Source: Janthinobacterium sp. 17J80-10 (GTDB lineage: Bacteria > Pseudomonadota > Gammaproteobacteria > Burkholderiales > Burkholderiaceae_D). From it: a stretch of DNA of 64,000 nucleotides. The notes below the pieces were generated by a model, which did not search any database, was not told where the DNA came from, and worked only from the letters and a program-made list of their open reading frames with translations. This document shows, piece after piece, positions 2,147 through 8,752 of this stretch. A program made the translations under genes and the position numbers. The DNA lies in the NCBI RefSeq assembly GCF_004114795.1, contig NZ_CP035311.1, positions 682,001 to 746,000 on the forward strand, given 5' to 3'. Position 1 is the first letter of the stretch, and each line of letters starts with the position of its first letter.

Positions 2147-2893
2147 TTGACTTCAGGCGTGAATTTCGACGGCATCGATGAGCGGTTCTTTGTACATGGC
2201 CGTATGGAGATCCTTGCCCTTCTGAACGAGTTTATTTATCGACACGAACCATTTCACGTGCATTTCGGCGTCGCCGAGCGCATCGTCACGCACCTGCTGG
2301 AGGCGCGCGATCAAGCCCTGGTATTCGAAGTCGCCGAGGTTGCGGCGGCCAATCAGCGTCTGGCGTCAGCATCGTCCTGCACCTTTCTTGCCTGCCCGGA
2401 TGGCATTCGGGTGCAGTTTGCCGCAGGGCCGGCACAGCCAGTGTCCTGGGGCGGCAGCGCCGCGTTCAGTGTGCCGCTTCCCTCCCGCCTGGCGCGGCTG
2501 CAGCGGCAAGAGAGTTTTCGCGTGGTCTTGCCGCATGCTCAGGCGCCGCAGGTATCGTTGCATGCAAGCGATGGCACTCTGCTGGGTGCGTGGCCCTTGC
2601 ACGATCTTAGCGCAGGCGGAATCAGCGTGGCGCTCAACAGCCAGGTCGAACTGGGACTGGCGCCGCAGGTCGCGCGCGTGCACCTGGTTCTTGACGGCCA
2701 TGGCATCATCGACAGTGCGGTGAATTTGCGCCACGCAACCGCTCTGACGCAGGGGCGCGGCGGCATGGCATTTCGCATCGGGCTGGGTTTCTCGGGTATG
2801 CCGGATGCAATGCGGGTGGCGATCCAGCGTTACATCATCGATGTCGAGCATGCGCGCCGCAACGCTCACGTGTCCTTTGGCACGGAGGGCTGA
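2147..2893 (+). CDS. YcgR-like PilZ protein, first tandem copy, altered RxxxR motif
   Basis: A 248-residue two-domain protein: an N-terminal YcgR/FlgZ-type domain (about residues 10-105) and a C-terminal PilZ domain (about 110-240). YcgR proteins bind cyclic di-GMP and slow the flagellar motor. The D-x-S-x-x-G motif is present at 153-158, but the R-x-x-x-R motif reads R120-Q121-E-S-F-R125, so the first ligand arginine is Gln here. The start is a TTG at 2147, chosen because a strong G-G-A-G-G lies 5 bases upstream and the nearby ATG runs into a stop at once. The next gene starts 1 base after this stop and is a paralogue. Confidence 0.85.
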   Translation: MTSGVNFDGIDERFFVHGRMEILALLNEFIYRHEPFHVHFGVAERIVTHLLEARDQALVFEVAEVAAANQRLASASSCTFLACPDGIRVQFAAGPAQPVSWGGSAAFSVPLPSRLARLQRQESFRVVLPHAQAPQVSLHASDGTLLGAWPLHDLSAGGISVALNSQVELGLAPQVARVHLVLDGHGIIDSAVNLRHATALTQGRGGMAFRIGLGFSGMPDAMRVAIQRYIIDVEHARRNAHVSFGTEG

Positions 2894-2894
2894 C

Positions 2895-3641
2895 ATGCTG
2901 CCCTCACTGAGCGACGACCAGATCGAGGACCGCTATTTCCTGCGCGGCCGCATGGAAATCCTCAGCGTTCTCAATGACCTCATTCATTACCGCGAGCCCG
3001 TGACCGTGTATTTCAATGGTGGCCGTGATTTTTTTCAGACCATTCTGCTGGAGGCGCGCGCCGATGCGCTGGTGTTTGACCTGAGCGGCGACCCGGAAGC
3101 CAATCGGCGCCTGCCGGCCAGTTCCACCTGCCTGTTCGTGTCCCACCTTAATGGCATTCGCGTGCAGTTCATCGGGGCCCAGCCAGAGCGTTTATCGTGG
3201 GGTGGCAGCGAGGCGTTCCGGGTGCCACTGCCGGAGCGCCTGGTGCGCGTGCAGCGGCGCGAGAGTTACCGCATCCTGCTGCCGGTCGCCAAGCCCCTGA
3301 TGGCCAGGCTGTTTGCCGAGGATAACGGCGCGGTCGGCGAATGGCCGGCACACGACTTGAGCGTGGGCGGCGTGGGCCTTGCCGTAATTGGCCAGCCGCC
3401 AGTCGAGGCGGGTCAGGTAATTGCCCGCCTGGCCCTGAAGCTGCCCTTGCCCGTCACAATCGATTGCGCCGCGCAGGTGCGTCATGTCACGCAGATCGCC
3501 GAGCGTCAGGAGGGGGATCGCTATCGCATCGGCTTGTCGTTTGTTGATTTGGCGCCGGCCGCCAGCGTGGCGATACAGCGCTATATTACGCGGATCGAGC
3601 ATGAACGACGCGGCCTGGACACTGGCGGCGTGGGCGGCTGA
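2895..3641 (+). CDS. YcgR-like PilZ protein, second tandem copy, intact motifs
   Basis: A 248-residue paralogue of the upstream gene, alignable along its whole length. The N-terminal YcgR domain covers about 10-105 and the PilZ domain about 110-240. Both c-di-GMP motifs are intact: R122-E-S-Y-R126 and D154-L-S-V-G-G159. The ATG at 2895 follows a G-G-A-G-G at about 2884 and comes 1 base after the previous stop, so the two are one transcription unit. An open frame extends upstream to 2805, but that overlaps the first gene and is not needed. The expected role is binding c-di-GMP at the flagellar motor or another membrane machine; no flagellar gene is in this window. Confidence 0.88.
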   Translation: MLPSLSDDQIEDRYFLRGRMEILSVLNDLIHYREPVTVYFNGGRDFFQTILLEARADALVFDLSGDPEANRRLPASSTCLFVSHLNGIRVQFIGAQPERLSWGGSEAFRVPLPERLVRVQRRESYRILLPVAKPLMARLFAEDNGAVGEWPAHDLSVGGVGLAVIGQPPVEAGQVIARLALKLPLPVTIDCAAQVRHVTQIAERQEGDRYRIGLSFVDLAPAASVAIQRYITRIEHERRGLDTGGVGG

Positions 3642-3642
3642 A

Positions 3643-5010
3643 TCACGCCGCACGCAGTTCCCAGCAATCGGTTGGCGTGCTCGCCTGGCTGGTTTTGACC
3701 AACCACTCTTTCTCAAGCAACACCAGTTCCGTTTCCAGCGCCGCGCTCGTATGAGTGTGGACATTTGCCGCGACATCGCCCGGCATGCGTTGCCGGAACG
3801 CCCGTTGAAACCATGTCAGCACCGCCGGGCAGTGCACTCCCGAACTCAGGTCCACGACAAACAAATGAAATACATCCTTGCGGTAAGCCAGCGAGGCTTC
3901 GCTGAGTATCGCGGCGACTGCCGGCGCAGTTTGCTCGACTTCGTATTCCATCCCTATTTTCTGCTCGTAAGCATGCTCTTCCCTGAAATTTTCCAGCATT
4001 TTTTTCAACGTCACCAGCCATCCTTCCCAGCACAAGAGCGCCGGGTCTGTCGCGCCGGACAAGTTGCCGCCGGAGCGTGCTTCCTTCATCATTTTCATGT
4101 GGCCTTCCGATGATTCGACCCAGTCCTGTACCGCCGGCAGCCATTCGCCGAACTTGCCGCGACTTTTGAGCAGAGCATGCTCGACCACTTGCTCCAGTCG
4201 TTGGCGCTCCAGTGCCGAGGCGAGTGTGGCGCCGAGGTACAGTATGCGCCCGTCGAGCACCTGCCGAGCCGGTTCCAGCCGCATCTTGCCCAACTCCAGC
4301 CGGCAGTCCGGCGCCACGCCCATGACAAGGTGGTCCGGGGCGGCAACGCCGATGCGGCGGCAAGTCTCGTGTACTAGCATCCATAGAGACGGCGCATCGT
4401 GCGCCGTGACCGGCTTGCCGGTCCGGGTCTTGCTGAAGCCGCGCCACAGGCGCCAGGCCGCAAGCACATGCGGCGGCACGCGGATGACCGCAATAATGCC
4501 GATGATGACGGCCAGTTGCAGCCCGACAGTGTCATTGCCCCACCAGATATGCGGAACGAACCAGACCGTCATGGCAGCAATCAGGCCGCGTGTCATGACC
4601 ATCGCCAGCGTGAGCAGAAGGCCGATTGCGCCGAGCCATGAGGCATTGCGCAAGATCCTTTCCTGCCAGCGCGGTGGCCAACCGGGCAAGCTTGCCGTGA
4701 GTAGCATGAATTTCGGGATGAGCATCAAGAGGCCCAGCGCCAGCCAATGCGTGAATGTCGCCGGTGCGTAAAGCGCGCACATGCCGGCGCTACTGGCCTG
4801 GCAGACATCGGCGAGCGAATGCACTTGGCCCGGATTGGAGCGGAGCCAGTCCAACTCCAACTTGTGCAAGGCTTCGCCGGCCCAGTACCATGCCAACAGC
4901 GGAATTGGTACCATCAGCGCAAGATAACGAAAAGGGCTGAAGGGGACTGGCTTGTGAATGGCAGAGCGCGAATAATCCTTGCGCGGATCGACTTCCCGGG
5001 CATCTAACAT
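3643..5010 (-). CDS. M48-like membrane protein lacking the HExxH zinc motif
   Basis: A 455-residue inner-membrane protein with about four hydrophobic segments in the first 190 residues and a soluble remainder. Residues 220-285 follow the course of M48 metallopeptidases (I-G-V-A-A-P-D-H, then a G-R-I-L-Y-L segment), but where the family has G-H-E-L-A-H the protein reads V-V-E-H-A-L-L-K (about 275-282). The later E-Y-E-A-D site is E-Y-E-V-E at about 355-359. Zinc binding and proteolysis are therefore unlikely. The gene is convergent with the PilZ pair and lies 23 bases downstream of the large acyltransferase fusion on the same strand, so the two may be cotranscribed. The family assignment is by eye. 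Confidence 0.5.
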   Translation of the reverse strand: MLDAREVDPRKDYSRSAIHKPVPFSPFRYLALMVPIPLLAWYWAGEALHKLELDWLRSNPGQVHSLADVCQASSAGMCALYAPATFTHWLALGLLMLIPKFMLLTASLPGWPPRWQERILRNASWLGAIGLLLTLAMVMTRGLIAAMTVWFVPHIWWGNDTVGLQLAVIIGIIAVIRVPPHVLAAWRLWRGFSKTRTGKPVTAHDAPSLWMLVHETCRRIGVAAPDHLVMGVAPDCRLELGKMRLEPARQVLDGRILYLGATLASALERQRLEQVVEHALLKSRGKFGEWLPAVQDWVESSEGHMKMMKEARSGGNLSGATDPALLCWEGWLVTLKKMLENFREEHAYEQKIGMEYEVEQTAPAVAAILSEASLAYRKDVFHLFVVDLSSGVHCPAVLTWFQRAFRQRMPGDVAANVHTHTSAALETELVLLEKEWLVKTSQASTPTDCWELRAA

Positions 5011-5033: not shown

Positions 5034-8000
5034 TCACCGCGCTGTTTTTGCCGCATCGGCCTGCTGCTGTGGTTCACGCGCCAGGTGCCGCTTCATGAAT
5101 GCAAACGTCCGTTCCTGCGCTTCCTGGGTGGCGGCAGCGTCGAAGCTGAAGGTCATGCGGTCGCCACGGAAAGTCATGGTCGACCTGCCGCTGACTTCGG
5201 CAAGATCCCAGCCATGCACAGCCTGTGGAAAGACATACCATTCAACTGGCGCGCCGCCGGCTTGCAATTCCTGCAGATGAGGCACGCAGTCATAGGCCGG
5301 CGTGTAGCTGTCTTCGCCACCCATCAGCAATAGCAACGGCGTATCGATGTCGGGCCGCAGGAAGTCGAGTTCCCGCTTGGCATAGCGGGCTGACATATAG
5401 CATAAGGGATACCAGGCGACACTGGCGGCATAGCGTTGTTGGGCCGTATACGGATCAGAAGACTTTTTAGAGGCCAGCATCAGCGCGATCGTGCCGCCCT
5501 GGGAAAATCCTGCGACGGTAATGCGCTGCGGATCGACTTGCGGGACCTTGCTCAAATAGTCGAGCGCATCGTAGGCGTCCTTGAGGCGCCGTGCCATGGA
5601 AACCTTCAGGGGCGCAACGCAGTTGGTGAGATGGCCGCGCATGCTGTCCAGCACCATCACCGCATAGCCTTGCGCAAGGCCGGCCTCGACCCGCTTGCGC
5701 ATCCTGTCGCCGATTCTGCCGCCGCAATCCGGCAGCAGCACCAGCGCCGGGAAAGGCCCTTGCCCGGCCGGCTTGAACACCGCGTTGCCCGGTGTGCCGA
5801 ACATGCCCAGTTTGCCCGCCTCGTTTTCGAAGTGCAAATCGTCTCCGGTGGCCCGCACTTCCTGCGCCTGCTCCCGGAAGTATTCGTCGAACTCATGGGC
5901 TGCAGTCGCGCTTGCCGCTGGCTGCAGATGCCGCTGCTCCTGCCAGGATCCGCCATCGCCATAGAATACCCAGCGGCCATCTGCCTTGTGCAGGCGAGCG
6001 CGCGCCGGGATGGCACCGGCCTCTGTCTGGACTTCGCCGCGGATATGGGCAAAGTCGCCGTCTTGGCGCAGTTCCTTGACTTGCCACTCGTAGCGCCGCG
6101 TATGTGGAAACAATTTGCGCATGGCAGCAAGATCCTTTTGGTTGGTTACCCGAAAGGCGGGATGGTGCAGCGCGAGCGCGGCTTCCAAATCATTGCCGGC
6201 CCAGGCGGCGCCATTGGCATCCAGCAGTTGCCGGATCTCCGCCGGAACAGGGACATTGGCCCTGGGATACATGTGCAGCTTGTGCGTACCCTCGGTGTCG
6301 AAAGACATCGCCAGCGCGCGGCTGGCTGGGGCGAGCAGTTCCTTCCAGGGACTGGCCTGCGGGTTGACAGTCATCCAGCCATAGCCGCTGCTGGCACGCT
6401 TGGGAAACGCGGGCGGGGTGATGACTGCCTTGTTTTCAGCGCCATCCTTGCCCAGGACGAGCCAGTCGTCGCCATTTTTTGGCCAGTCATCGCGATAGGT
6501 CGAGGACTTTCTGGTGATCACGCCTTCAAATCCGATATCGGCAAGCGGCGCGCCATCACGCCGCAAGGCGATGTGCCACTGCCGGGCGATGCTGCGGCGA
6601 ATATCGATATCTGCAAGAAATTTGGGAAAGCCGATGGCCTTGCCTGATTCCACCGCCAGCCAGTCGGATTCCGGCATGGCGAGGATGTGCCAGATGTTTT
6701 CCCCATCCTTGCTCGCCAGTATGCTCAGCTGCGCCATCCTGTAAGGGCTTTGCGGCGCGCCCATGCCTTGCCAGTCGGCGACCGACACCCTCACGTAGGG
6801 ACGCTCAGGCAGGGTGTACCCTGCTGGCAGGTGGCGCCGGTACGTATCCAGGTCGCGCGGCGTGAAATCGGCCACGACATGCGCTGCCCGCTGGTACAGG
6901 CTGGCTTCCTCGTATTTCTGGTTGCCTCGCAATTTCCACTGGCCCGCTTCCCGCACCAGTGTTGACCCCGCCTGCAACGGCAGCAACTGCAAGTCCGGCG
7001 CCAGTACGCCTTTCTCGGAAAAGCCATAGGCGCTCACTTCCACATGGTCGGGATAGGTGCGGAACTCGACTGGCCTAACATCAACTTTGCCCAGGTGCTG
7101 CCGGTTTTTTTTCAGGTGGGCGAGAAACGCTGTGCGATCCATGCCCTGGTGAAGAAAGTCCTTTGACAGCAATTGCGCCACTGCGTTGGCATCCGGACTG
7201 GCGTAGGCATGGCCAAGCTCGCGCAGCAACCGGCCGATGTCGTCCGGCACGGCAATTGCCGCCGGGGCGCTGCGGCGGGTCGGCAATTGATTTGCATCGA
7301 ATTTTATTTGCGTCAAAGTTACGCCGCCAATGACGAGCAGCGTGCCGAGCACCGCCAGCGTGCGCCGGCTGAAAGGCAAGGCATGCCGACGGCCATTCAG
7401 CAAGGTCCCTATCGGCGTGTAGCGTACCAGGAGATGGTAGCTCAGCAGGCACACTGTCGTTGTGGCTGCCATGTTGATGGCCATCTTGGTCAGGGCGCCA
7501 TACGGCGCGTCGTACAGCAGCACGCCAAAGCCGACCGTGGCCGTCATGTGCACCAGATACACCCAGTACGAACTGTCTGCAATATAGGCCAGGAAGCGGT
7601 TTTGCGCCGGCAGGTAGCGCATGAACAGGCCGATCAGGGCGAAACTCCACAGCCAGCTGGCACAGTGATACAGGAAGGCCATTCCGGCCCAGGCGTAGGG
7701 TGCCGCATGCGCTTGCTTGAGCAGGACATCGTAGACGCCCATGGCGACAATGAAGAAAGCCAGTCCTGCCGCCAGGTAGCGCCAGCAATGCTGCATATAC
7801 GATGCCAGCAGCCTGTCCTGTTGCCGGTACAGGTAGTAGCCGAAGACGAAGAACAGGCCGTTGTGGATCAGCTCGGTGGCGCGCGGCAGCAGGGAGCCGT
7901 CCGGCGCGACGATGCCATTCCAGTAAAATGCGCCGGTTGCCGCCAGCGGCAGCGTCAAAACCAGAAACCCCCACCAGCGCGATGCCAGGAAGTACCACGT

Positions 8001-8516
8001 CGCGGCGATGCGGTCTCTTGCGCGGGCGGGGATATGCCGCGCTGCCAGGCAGCACAGGGCGGTGAGGGCGCAAAACCACAGCAGGTAATACAAGAACCAC
8101 AAATGCATGGTATTGAGCAGCGGGCCATCGGGAAGCTGCGGCGGCTGGCCCTCGGCGTCGAGCGGCATCAAGGCCAGATACTGCATGATGAGGGCGCCGG
8201 TGCCGATGTAGACCAATGGCCAGAACACCAGAAAGGGCAGGCCGATGCGGCGCAGGCGGTGCTTGAGCATGCCGCCGTAGTCGCGCCGCGCCACCAGCAG
8301 CGCGACAAAAAAGCCTGCCAGGATGAAAAACACCGGCATGCGGAAAGTGTGGATGACGGCCATCGCCAGGTTGGCCGCGGGCGTGGTTTCCGGATCGCGC
8401 CAGGGCAGCGGGGATATGCCGACCATGTGATTGACGGCGACATGCAGCACAACGCCGAGCCACATCATGATCGCCCGCAGGTTGTCGAGCGAATGGAAAC
8501 GTTGTGCCGTGGTCAT
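5034..8516 (-). CDS. five-domain fusion: acyltransferase-3, NTF2-like, acetoacetate-decarboxylase-like, NTF2-like, dienelactone hydrolase
   Basis: One uninterrupted 1160-codon frame. Residues 1-370 are an acyltransferase-3 (AT3/OpgC-type) membrane domain with the S-L-D-N-L-R-A start and about ten helices; an extra helix lies at 383-402. Residues 422-535 look NTF2/SnoaL-like. Residues 540-755 resemble the acetoacetate decarboxylase superfamily, with G-F-P-K632-F-L-A-D where the Schiff-base lysine sits in the Clostridium enzyme. Residues 757-868 are a second NTF2-like domain. Residues 872-1150 are a dienelactone-hydrolase-type alpha/beta hydrolase with G-F-S1005-Q-G, D1069 and H1101. By analogy with AT3-SGNH proteins the eleventh helix would put the C-terminal 750 residues in the periplasm. 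Substrate unknown; possibly transfer, then trimming, of an acyl group on an envelope glycan or lipid. Start ATG at 8516. Confidence 0.75.
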   Translation of the reverse strand: MTTAQRFHSLDNLRAIMMWLGVVLHVAVNHMVGISPLPWRDPETTPAANLAMAVIHTFRMPVFFILAGFFVALLVARRDYGGMLKHRLRRIGLPFLVFWPLVYIGTGALIMQYLALMPLDAEGQPPQLPDGPLLNTMHLWFLYYLLWFCALTALCCLAARHIPARARDRIAATWYFLASRWWGFLVLTLPLAATGAFYWNGIVAPDGSLLPRATELIHNGLFFVFGYYLYRQQDRLLASYMQHCWRYLAAGLAFFIVAMGVYDVLLKQAHAAPYAWAGMAFLYHCASWLWSFALIGLFMRYLPAQNRFLAYIADSSYWVYLVHMTATVGFGVLLYDAPYGALTKMAINMAATTTVCLLSYHLLVRYTPIGTLLNGRRHALPFSRRTLAVLGTLLVIGGVTLTQIKFDANQLPTRRSAPAAIAVPDDIGRLLRELGHAYASPDANAVAQLLSKDFLHQGMDRTAFLAHLKKNRQHLGKVDVRPVEFRTYPDHVEVSAYGFSEKGVLAPDLQLLPLQAGSTLVREAGQWKLRGNQKYEEASLYQRAAHVVADFTPRDLDTYRRHLPAGYTLPERPYVRVSVADWQGMGAPQSPYRMAQLSILASKDGENIWHILAMPESDWLAVESGKAIGFPKFLADIDIRRSIARQWHIALRRDGAPLADIGFEGVITRKSSTYRDDWPKNGDDWLVLGKDGAENKAVITPPAFPKRASSGYGWMTVNPQASPWKELLAPASRALAMSFDTEGTHKLHMYPRANVPVPAEIRQLLDANGAAWAGNDLEAALALHHPAFRVTNQKDLAAMRKLFPHTRRYEWQVKELRQDGDFAHIRGEVQTEAGAIPARARLHKADGRWVFYGDGGSWQEQRHLQPAASATAAHEFDEYFREQAQEVRATGDDLHFENEAGKLGMFGTPGNAVFKPAGQGPFPALVLLPDCGGRIGDRMRKRVEAGLAQGYAVMVLDSMRGHLTNCVAPLKVSMARRLKDAYDALDYLSKVPQVDPQRITVAGFSQGGTIALMLASKKSSDPYTAQQRYAASVAWYPLCYMSARYAKRELDFLRPDIDTPLLLLMGGEDSYTPAYDCVPHLQELQAGGAPVEWYVFPQAVHGWDLAEVSGRSTMTFRGDRMTFSFDAAATQEAQERTFAFMKRHLAREPQQQADAAKTAR

Positions 8517-8720: not shown

Positions 8721-8752
8721 AAAAAACGCCGGCTTAAAGCCGGCGTTTTTTA
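8721..8752 (-). terminator. intrinsic terminator of lipA
   Basis: An 11-base-arm GC-rich hairpin (about 8726-8747; core A-C-G-C-C-G-G-C and its complement) is followed on the minus strand by six T residues. It lies just after the lipA stop and probably ends the long minus-strand lipoate and envelope unit. T-rich sequence on both sides could let it act in either direction. Confidence 0.85.

Follow-up and report, generated by a model that had tools for sequence, protein, structure and literature searches.

The window analysed here, a stretch of 64,000 nucleotides from Janthinobacterium sp. 17J80-10 (NZ_CP035311.1, positions 682,001 to 746,000), carries on its minus strand, from 8516 to 5034, a single frame of 1160 codons that encodes an unusual membrane protein. 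The data support five domains, in the order acyltransferase-3 (AT3) domain of OpgC-like type, NTF2-like domain, acetoacetate-decarboxylase-like (ADC-like) domain, second NTF2-like domain and alpha/beta hydrolase of the dienelactone-hydrolase (DLH) type; taken singly, all five belong to known kinds, and their combination appears to be new in the searches made. By analogy with AT3-SGNH proteins we favour, tentatively, the reading that the fusion is a membrane-anchored envelope acyl-transfer enzyme in which the DLH domain would act as the terminal transferase.

The domain order was obtained from a Pfam-A scan of the fusion protein, in which AT3, DUF4440, ADC and DLH exceeded their gathering scores and SnoaL_2 fell below, and from scanning six orthologues over their middle region (E up to 10), where ADC, DUF4440 and SnoaL_2 were each found in 6/6, with best E of 2e-13, 8e-10 and 1.4e-7, respectively. 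None of the 16 Pfam matches at E up to 1 in the fusion protein was an SGNH/GDSL family, the hydrolase being DLH, and Foldseek with the full-length model returned no match under 0.001. These results agree with a first-pass annotation, made from the sequence alone, which had read an AT3, two NTF2-like, an ADC-like and a DLH domain in one protein, and both an ADC and an NTF2 match indeed fall within residues 415-870.

The same annotation had described the frame as continuous over 1160 codons without a frameshift and had named no strand. The frame begins with an ATG immediately preceded by the ribosome-binding-like GTGAGG, and the plus strand across 5034-8516 is interrupted by stops. The same uninterrupted frame is present at full length in all six genomes of the genus that were examined, the five other proteins being 52-83% identical to the window protein; the carriers include Paucimonas lemoignei DSM 7445 and the metagenome-assembled genome (MAG) UBA8502, both recognised by identity of the translated sequences. 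We therefore rejected the idea that the fusion is an assembly join or a frame artefact, the probability of which is practically negligible: no point in its favour was found, one of the six genomes with this same frame is a one-contig genome, and the ratio of nonsynonymous to synonymous change (pN/pS) was below 1 for every segment in four pairs. For the closest pair, the five domains had values of 0.23-0.31 and the stretch formed by helix 11 and the linker had 0.54; for the other three pairs, the domains ranged over 0.23-0.51 and the linker over 0.31-0.72. Residues R14, H25, R87, R90, K632, S1005, D1069 and H1101, together with the cysteines 931, 966, 1039 and 1077, are invariant in the six sequences.

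The membrane domain and the predicted location of the tail

The acyltransferase-3 family PF01757 was matched at residues 8-360 (E 2e-34; 119.5 bits against a gathering score of 31). The best named family of this part is MdoC/OpgC (NCBIfam NF003014), whose cut-off of 338 was not reached by the 140.3 bits obtained, and the identity to E. coli OpgC is 26% over 364 alignment columns. The pairs R14-X10-H25 in helix 1 and R87xxR90 at helix 3, unchanged in the six orthologues, are the R-X10-H and RXXR motifs described for OafB in the available part of PMC9833829. The 33 AT3-only rows of an AT3 alignment (A7) were picked from 75 partial loci plus L008 and L011.

An AlphaFold2 model built from 36 sequences was good over residues 8-403, with a predicted local distance difference test score (pLDDT) of mostly ~90 in ten-residue blocks and lower values in loops. 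Over residues 4-375 it matched HGSNAT with Z 14.1 and a root-mean-square deviation (rmsd) of 5.5 for 291 aligned residues, a Z to be read with caution, since a best value of about 14 is common for models that consist mainly of helices, and unrelated transporters in the same list had Z 3.9 or less. An HGSNAT-like fold is what the TmAT paper would predict for an AT3 domain (PMC12423673, in the part available).

Behind the ten helices assigned to the AT3 domain, an extra helix had been placed at 383-402 in the first-pass annotation, and the model has it at 384-403. This eleventh helix, the loop charges, the cysteine pattern and the exported look of related domains together support a predicted location of residues 405-1160 outside the cytoplasm. 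When the ends of the helices were set by hand, 14 lysines plus arginines fell into loops assigned to the inside and 3 into loops assigned to the outside. The tail of the window protein has only four cysteines, all of them in the DLH domain; when this domain was compared with eight aligned relatives, C1039 and C1077 were present in 9/9 sequences, and C931 and C966 were both present in 6/9 and both absent in 3/9. This co-occurrence, along with C1039/C1077, is the pattern expected of two disulfides.

Those relatives of the NTF2-like domains that were inspected look exported, as judged by their N-terminus or by their partner domain, signal peptides and lipoboxes being called by eye without a predictor. 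They comprise a lipobox-bearing alpha/beta hydrolase (L135), two L,D-transpeptidases (L136, L162) whose NTF2 domain is of the Cds6_C family, a serine hydrolase of the beta-lactamase type to which an NTF2-like domain is fused (L160) and two lipoproteins (L161, L163); one further NTF2 match fell at L153. At L098 an NTF2-like gene lies next to a gene for a beta-lactamase-type serine hydrolase, and in genome G002 this locus is less than 3 kb from the fusion gene, with a further frame between them. The pairing of a serine hydrolase with an NTF2-like domain was thus seen both as neighbouring genes (L098:9161-10782) and as one fused protein (L160:1495-3057).

The hydrolase, NTF2-like and ADC-like domains

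PF01738 was matched at residues 913-1144 (E 5e-17; 62.6 bits against a gathering score of 21). The full triad S1005, D1069 and H1101, already recognised at these positions in the first-pass annotation, is unchanged in 6/6 orthologues and in 8/8 aligned relatives, two weaker ones (L002 and L103) having been left out of the comparison. The classical dienelactone hydrolase uses a cysteine nucleophile; position 1005 is Ser, not Cys, in all six orthologues.

The first NTF2-like domain is matched by DUF4440 at residues 429-529 (E 3e-8, above the cut-off), and the second by SnoaL_2 at residues 770-850 (E 0.005, below the cut-off in the window protein). Models of the two domains built from the six orthologues had pLDDT values of roughly 75-80; both matched NTF2/KSI folds, the first 3hx8 (Z 11.5, rmsd 2.3, 103 aligned) and the second PBP5fm (Z 9.4, rmsd 3.5, 100 aligned). 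In the later model from 36 sequences only three rows were full length, and the tail including these domains came out worse than in the earlier one. Alignment of the two domains with hhalign gave a probability of 92.8 over 101 columns, so that, judged by sequence, the ADC-like domain seems to sit between two sister domains. The second NTF2-like domain scored 73.5 bits to L160 and 52.3 bits to the L135 place. In these proteins a C-terminal NTF2-like domain, to which the second one of the fusion is related, likewise stands beside a serine hydrolase; unlike in the fusion, their hydrolase is of the beta-lactamase type or another alpha/beta hydrolase, and they have no AT3 or ADC-like part.

Between the NTF2-like domains, PF06314 was matched at residues 555-661 (E 4e-11; 43.3 bits against a gathering score of 29.8), covering profile positions 31-137 of 238 only. 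Against an alignment of 13 ADC-family proteins, chosen from a larger set of loci with FAD-fused and broken ones left out, hhalign gave a probability of 94.7 over 88 columns, confined to residues ~554-643 and with GFPK placed on GFPK; the second half of the domain had no match to this alignment. Models of the ADC-like domain were poor (pLDDT ~35), so that its assignment rests on sequence, and the fact that no ADC structure stood in the fold-search rows shown is uninformative with such a model. Profile searches of solved structures gave nothing significant for the ADC part, acetoacetate decarboxylase 3cmb (E 1.2) standing behind two IsdA chains, and one weak match for the whole middle region.

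K632 is present in 6/6 orthologues and aligns to the invariant K116 of L105, as expected from the earlier reading of GFPK632, followed by Phe, as the Schiff-base lysine segment; position 633 is F in five orthologues and M in one. The residues invariant in the 13 ADC-family proteins include Y75, E77, G108, G113 and K116 (L105 numbering). The fusion domain keeps the tyrosine, both glycines and the lysine, M or L replaces E77, and GKA or GKQ replaces GRE. In the numbering of the C. acetobutylicum enzyme, the lost acidic residue is E76, the kept Schiff-base lysine K115 and the lost second lysine K116. Loss of the second lysine alone would not be unique, since 3/13 of the aligned ADC-family proteins also lack it. 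Together with the loss of the invariant Glu and of the GRE motif, however, it makes ordinary acetoacetate decarboxylation unlikely, and binding of a substrate as a Schiff base through K632 is possible. The first-pass annotation had suspected from the missing lysine that the chemistry may differ, and the change goes further than it supposed, the acidic residue and GRE also being gone. The domain is thus similar to PF06314 members over its first half and shares the lysine in GFPK, and it differs from them in being joined to a membrane domain and probably located outside the cytoplasm, as well as in the residues lost. The fusion in this way documents a membrane-tethered ADC-like domain in which most of the decarboxylase site is lost and the lysine kept.

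Other ADC-like domains in unusual settings were seen in proteins of ~1050 aa in other genera of the family (L133, L134, L137, L138), which carry the motif GYPKY and whose partner part is presumably an FAD/NAD-binding oxidoreductase. L141:4780-8866 holds two divergent ADC-like proteins, with the motifs GIPKD and GLPKF, within ~4 kb.

Proposed envelope acyl transfer and its alternatives

In the mechanism that we tentatively favour, the OpgC-like AT3 domain would take an acyl group from a donor, presumably cytoplasmic acyl-CoA, and make it available on the periplasmic side of the inner membrane, the eleventh helix putting the NTF2-ADC-NTF2-DLH part into the periplasm. Ser1005 of the DLH domain could then take over the acyl group and relay it to a glycan or another envelope acceptor, and the DLH domain would do the job of the SGNH domain in OatA and OafB. 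The NTF2-like pair and the ADC-like domain might mainly provide pockets or spacers that bind the acceptor or the acyl group. K632 of the ADC-like part, which is probably not a decarboxylase, may still serve to hold a carbonyl compound.

Terminal transfer by the DLH domain was preferred over an editing esterase and over chemistry by the AT3 domain alone on the analogy with the SGNH domain of OatA, OafA and OafB: in AT3-SGNH proteins the hydrolase-like domain is the final transferase (PMC9558356 and PMC9487903, both in the parts available). The plan of an AT3 domain, helix 11 and a serine hydrolase predicted outside parallels these proteins, the fusion likewise having an AT3 domain, an eleventh helix and a putatively periplasmic hydrolase-like domain with Ser/His/Asp. 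Unlike them, its hydrolase is of the DLH type, an NTF2-ADC-NTF2 block is inserted in between and the AT3 part is OpgC-like. With an OpgC-like AT3 domain and an unrelated serine hydrolase joined in nature, the protein offers a ready-made test of whether another hydrolase family can take the place of SGNH.

Several points weigh against this proposal. OpgC itself is active with no additional domain, and a relay may thus be unnecessary for the AT3 part. The hydrolase is DLH and not SGNH, and no precedent was found for the relay of acyl groups by a domain of the DLH type. The DLH domain of the full-length model was poor (pLDDT ~30-65) and the best structural rows for this region were IF3-like folds (Z 8.1), not hydrolases, so that the hydrolase fold is deduced from its sequence. 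The 15 residues following helix 11 hold 3 lysines plus arginines, which weakens the charge argument, and the genes flanking the fusion gene, which vary from one of the six genomes to another, indicate no glycan pathway. Acyl transfer itself is proposed here from sequence and analogy.

An unlikely though serious candidate is a division of labour in which the acceptor is acylated by the AT3 domain without help and the DLH domain works as an esterase, taking acyl groups off again and so setting the level of modification. The triad residues are in place for it, single-domain DLH relatives with signal-peptide-like starts exist, including one of 39% identity in a sister genome, and opposing activities in one protein have been proposed for acyltransferase-esterase fusions such as Cas1p (Biol Direct 2010, PMC2824669, of which a part was available); OatA, OafA and OafB, on the other hand, are described as transferases and not as esterases in the available text of PMC9487903. 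Cas1p, a eukaryotic protein with a PC-esterase domain, resembles the fusion in joining a membrane acyltransferase and an esterase-like domain in one chain, and differs in the families of both and in having the esterase domain at the N-terminus (PMC2824669). The first-pass annotation had suggested an envelope-modifying enzyme that adds and edits acyl groups; the location of the tail outside the cytoplasm, predicted from the eleventh helix, and the triad stand, and the adding and editing of acyl groups are still conjectural, a final transferase being, by the AT3-SGNH precedent, as likely a role for the hydrolase-like domain as an editing esterase, or likelier.

A distinctly improbable view leaves all the chemistry to the AT3 domain, as in OpgC, and has the other four domains bind or recognise the acceptor, or work on an unrelated target. 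Proteins with an OpgC-like AT3 domain usually have no partner domain, a relative of 58% identity that consists of AT3 only (L008) occurs in the same family, and its weakly supported place within the fused AT3 domains (92/88) suggests that the tail may be dispensable; moreover, the OpgC-like L060 and L075 carry a lectin domain at the same place. The triad, K632 and the four cysteines, in contrast, are invariant in six sequences down to ~50% identity, suggesting more than passive binding.

Closer still to OpgC would be a straightforward periplasmic-glucan succinyltransferase with decoration, a reading that we regard as scarcely credible. MdoC/OpgC is the closest named family of the AT3 part, with the identity to E. 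coli OpgC given above; OpgC, however, lacks the extra domains, and the score of 140 stays far from the MdoC cut-off. MdoG is needed for making periplasmic glucan, and it was found in 2/6 genomes of the genus (2/5 of the high-quality ones) and not in the 4/6 others, all six of which bear the fusion. A simple OpgC identity was rejected on these two grounds, and periplasmic glucan is unlikely as the general acceptor given the distribution of MdoG.

In its boldest form, the hand-over from AT3 to a DLH-type in place of an SGNH domain would be a third way, independent of the others, of moving acyl groups across the membrane, with K632 of the ADC-like domain binding a keto-acyl group such as acetoacetyl by Schiff base and the envelope receiving an acyl group new to AT3 systems; we consider this highly improbable.

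Distribution and genomic surroundings

The architecture was unfamiliar in the first reading of the sequence, and it was found in 6/6 genomes of the genus and, in the searches made, in none outside it. A set of 94 further genomes contained no full-length copy (0/94). A contig scan with six exact peptide patterns, which would miss distant copies, gave 77 loci, of which 2 were full length (both of the genus) and the other 75 had no match past residue 472. The middle region was searched in samples of larger groups, with four candidates scored per genome, so that very distant copies could escape: of 399 genomes from the order, the window's own was the only one with a match; 398 genomes from the phylum included 3 with a match, in two cases through an NTF2-like part alone; and 392 from the family included 10, of which the 6 of this genus matched along the entire region and the other 4 through an NTF2-like part alone. 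Plasmids yielded 70 matching records, 0 of them over 80% of the query.

No publication on the AT3/NTF2/ADC/DLH combination was found in a literature search. In the available parts of the sources on AT3 fusions (PMC9558356, PMC9833829, PMC2824669, PMC12423673), the partners named are SGNH, alanine racemase and, for animals, NRF, to which the wider superfamily adds esterases of the Cas1p type; DLH, ADC or NTF2 is not named there as an AT3 partner.

In a tree of 27 AT3 domains, for which 20 AT3-only rows were chosen from 75 partial loci plus L008 and L011, L008, which belongs to another genus of the family, was placed among the fused ones, and the fused AT3 domains were kept together in only 6% of 200 bootstrap trees. 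This would fit one gain and one loss of the fusion, two gains, or a misplaced L008 row. A tblastn search behind this AT3-only gene, in genome G021, revealed no relic of the tail (best E 0.25).

Different partners of AT3 domains were observed elsewhere. Two proteins of Bacteriovoracales/Halobacteriovoraceae (L060:5986-7680 and L075:4804-7722) have an OpgC-like AT3 domain followed by a C-type lectin domain, the latter protein also with an N-terminal 7TMR-DISM receptor part, and in an Acidobacteria MAG (L049:5995-8130) an AT3 domain is fused to an ABC-transporter ATPase.

Table 1. Features of the fusion gene and its upstream region (window coordinates).
Feature	Position	Strand	Details and basis
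Five-domain fusion gene	5034..8516	-	1160 aa, ATG at 8516; frame, Pfam-A, orthologue comparison
OpgC/MdoC-like AT3 domain, residues 1-382, read as ten transmembrane helices	7371..8516	-	PF01757, MdoC match, model, motifs
Eleventh helix, residues 383-404	7305..7370	-	helix 384-403 in model; hydropathy; loop charge
First NTF2-like domain, residues 418-540	6897..7265	-	DUF4440; model; NTF2/KSI fold 3hx8
ADC-like domain, residues 541-755	6252..6896	-	K632 in GFPKF; PF06314; 6/6 orthologues; hhalign
Second NTF2-like domain, residues 753-868	5913..6260	-	SnoaL_2 in orthologues; fold match; hhalign to first
DLH-type alpha/beta hydrolase, residues 872-1150	5067..5903	-	PF01738; triad S1005-D1069-H1101; four conserved Cys
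Terminator-like palindromic hairpin between lipA and the fusion gene	8721..8751		consensus match only

The hairpin separates the fusion gene from lipA (Table 1), which suggests that the fusion gene is transcribed as a separate unit; scanning the region for terminator-like sites gave 7 against 5.7 expected, and the hairpin evidence is therefore weak. Downstream, at a distance of 23 bases, lies a gene for a 455-aa protein (3643-5010, minus strand), membrane-like by eye and matched by no Pfam family. It was rejected as a fixed operon partner, since it adjoins the fusion gene in 3/6 genomes, lies elsewhere in 2 others and was not found in the remaining one. Further along, two adjoining PilZN-PilZ (YcgR-like) genes, at 2147-2893 and 2805-3641 on the plus strand and overlapping as called, are convergent to the fusion gene.

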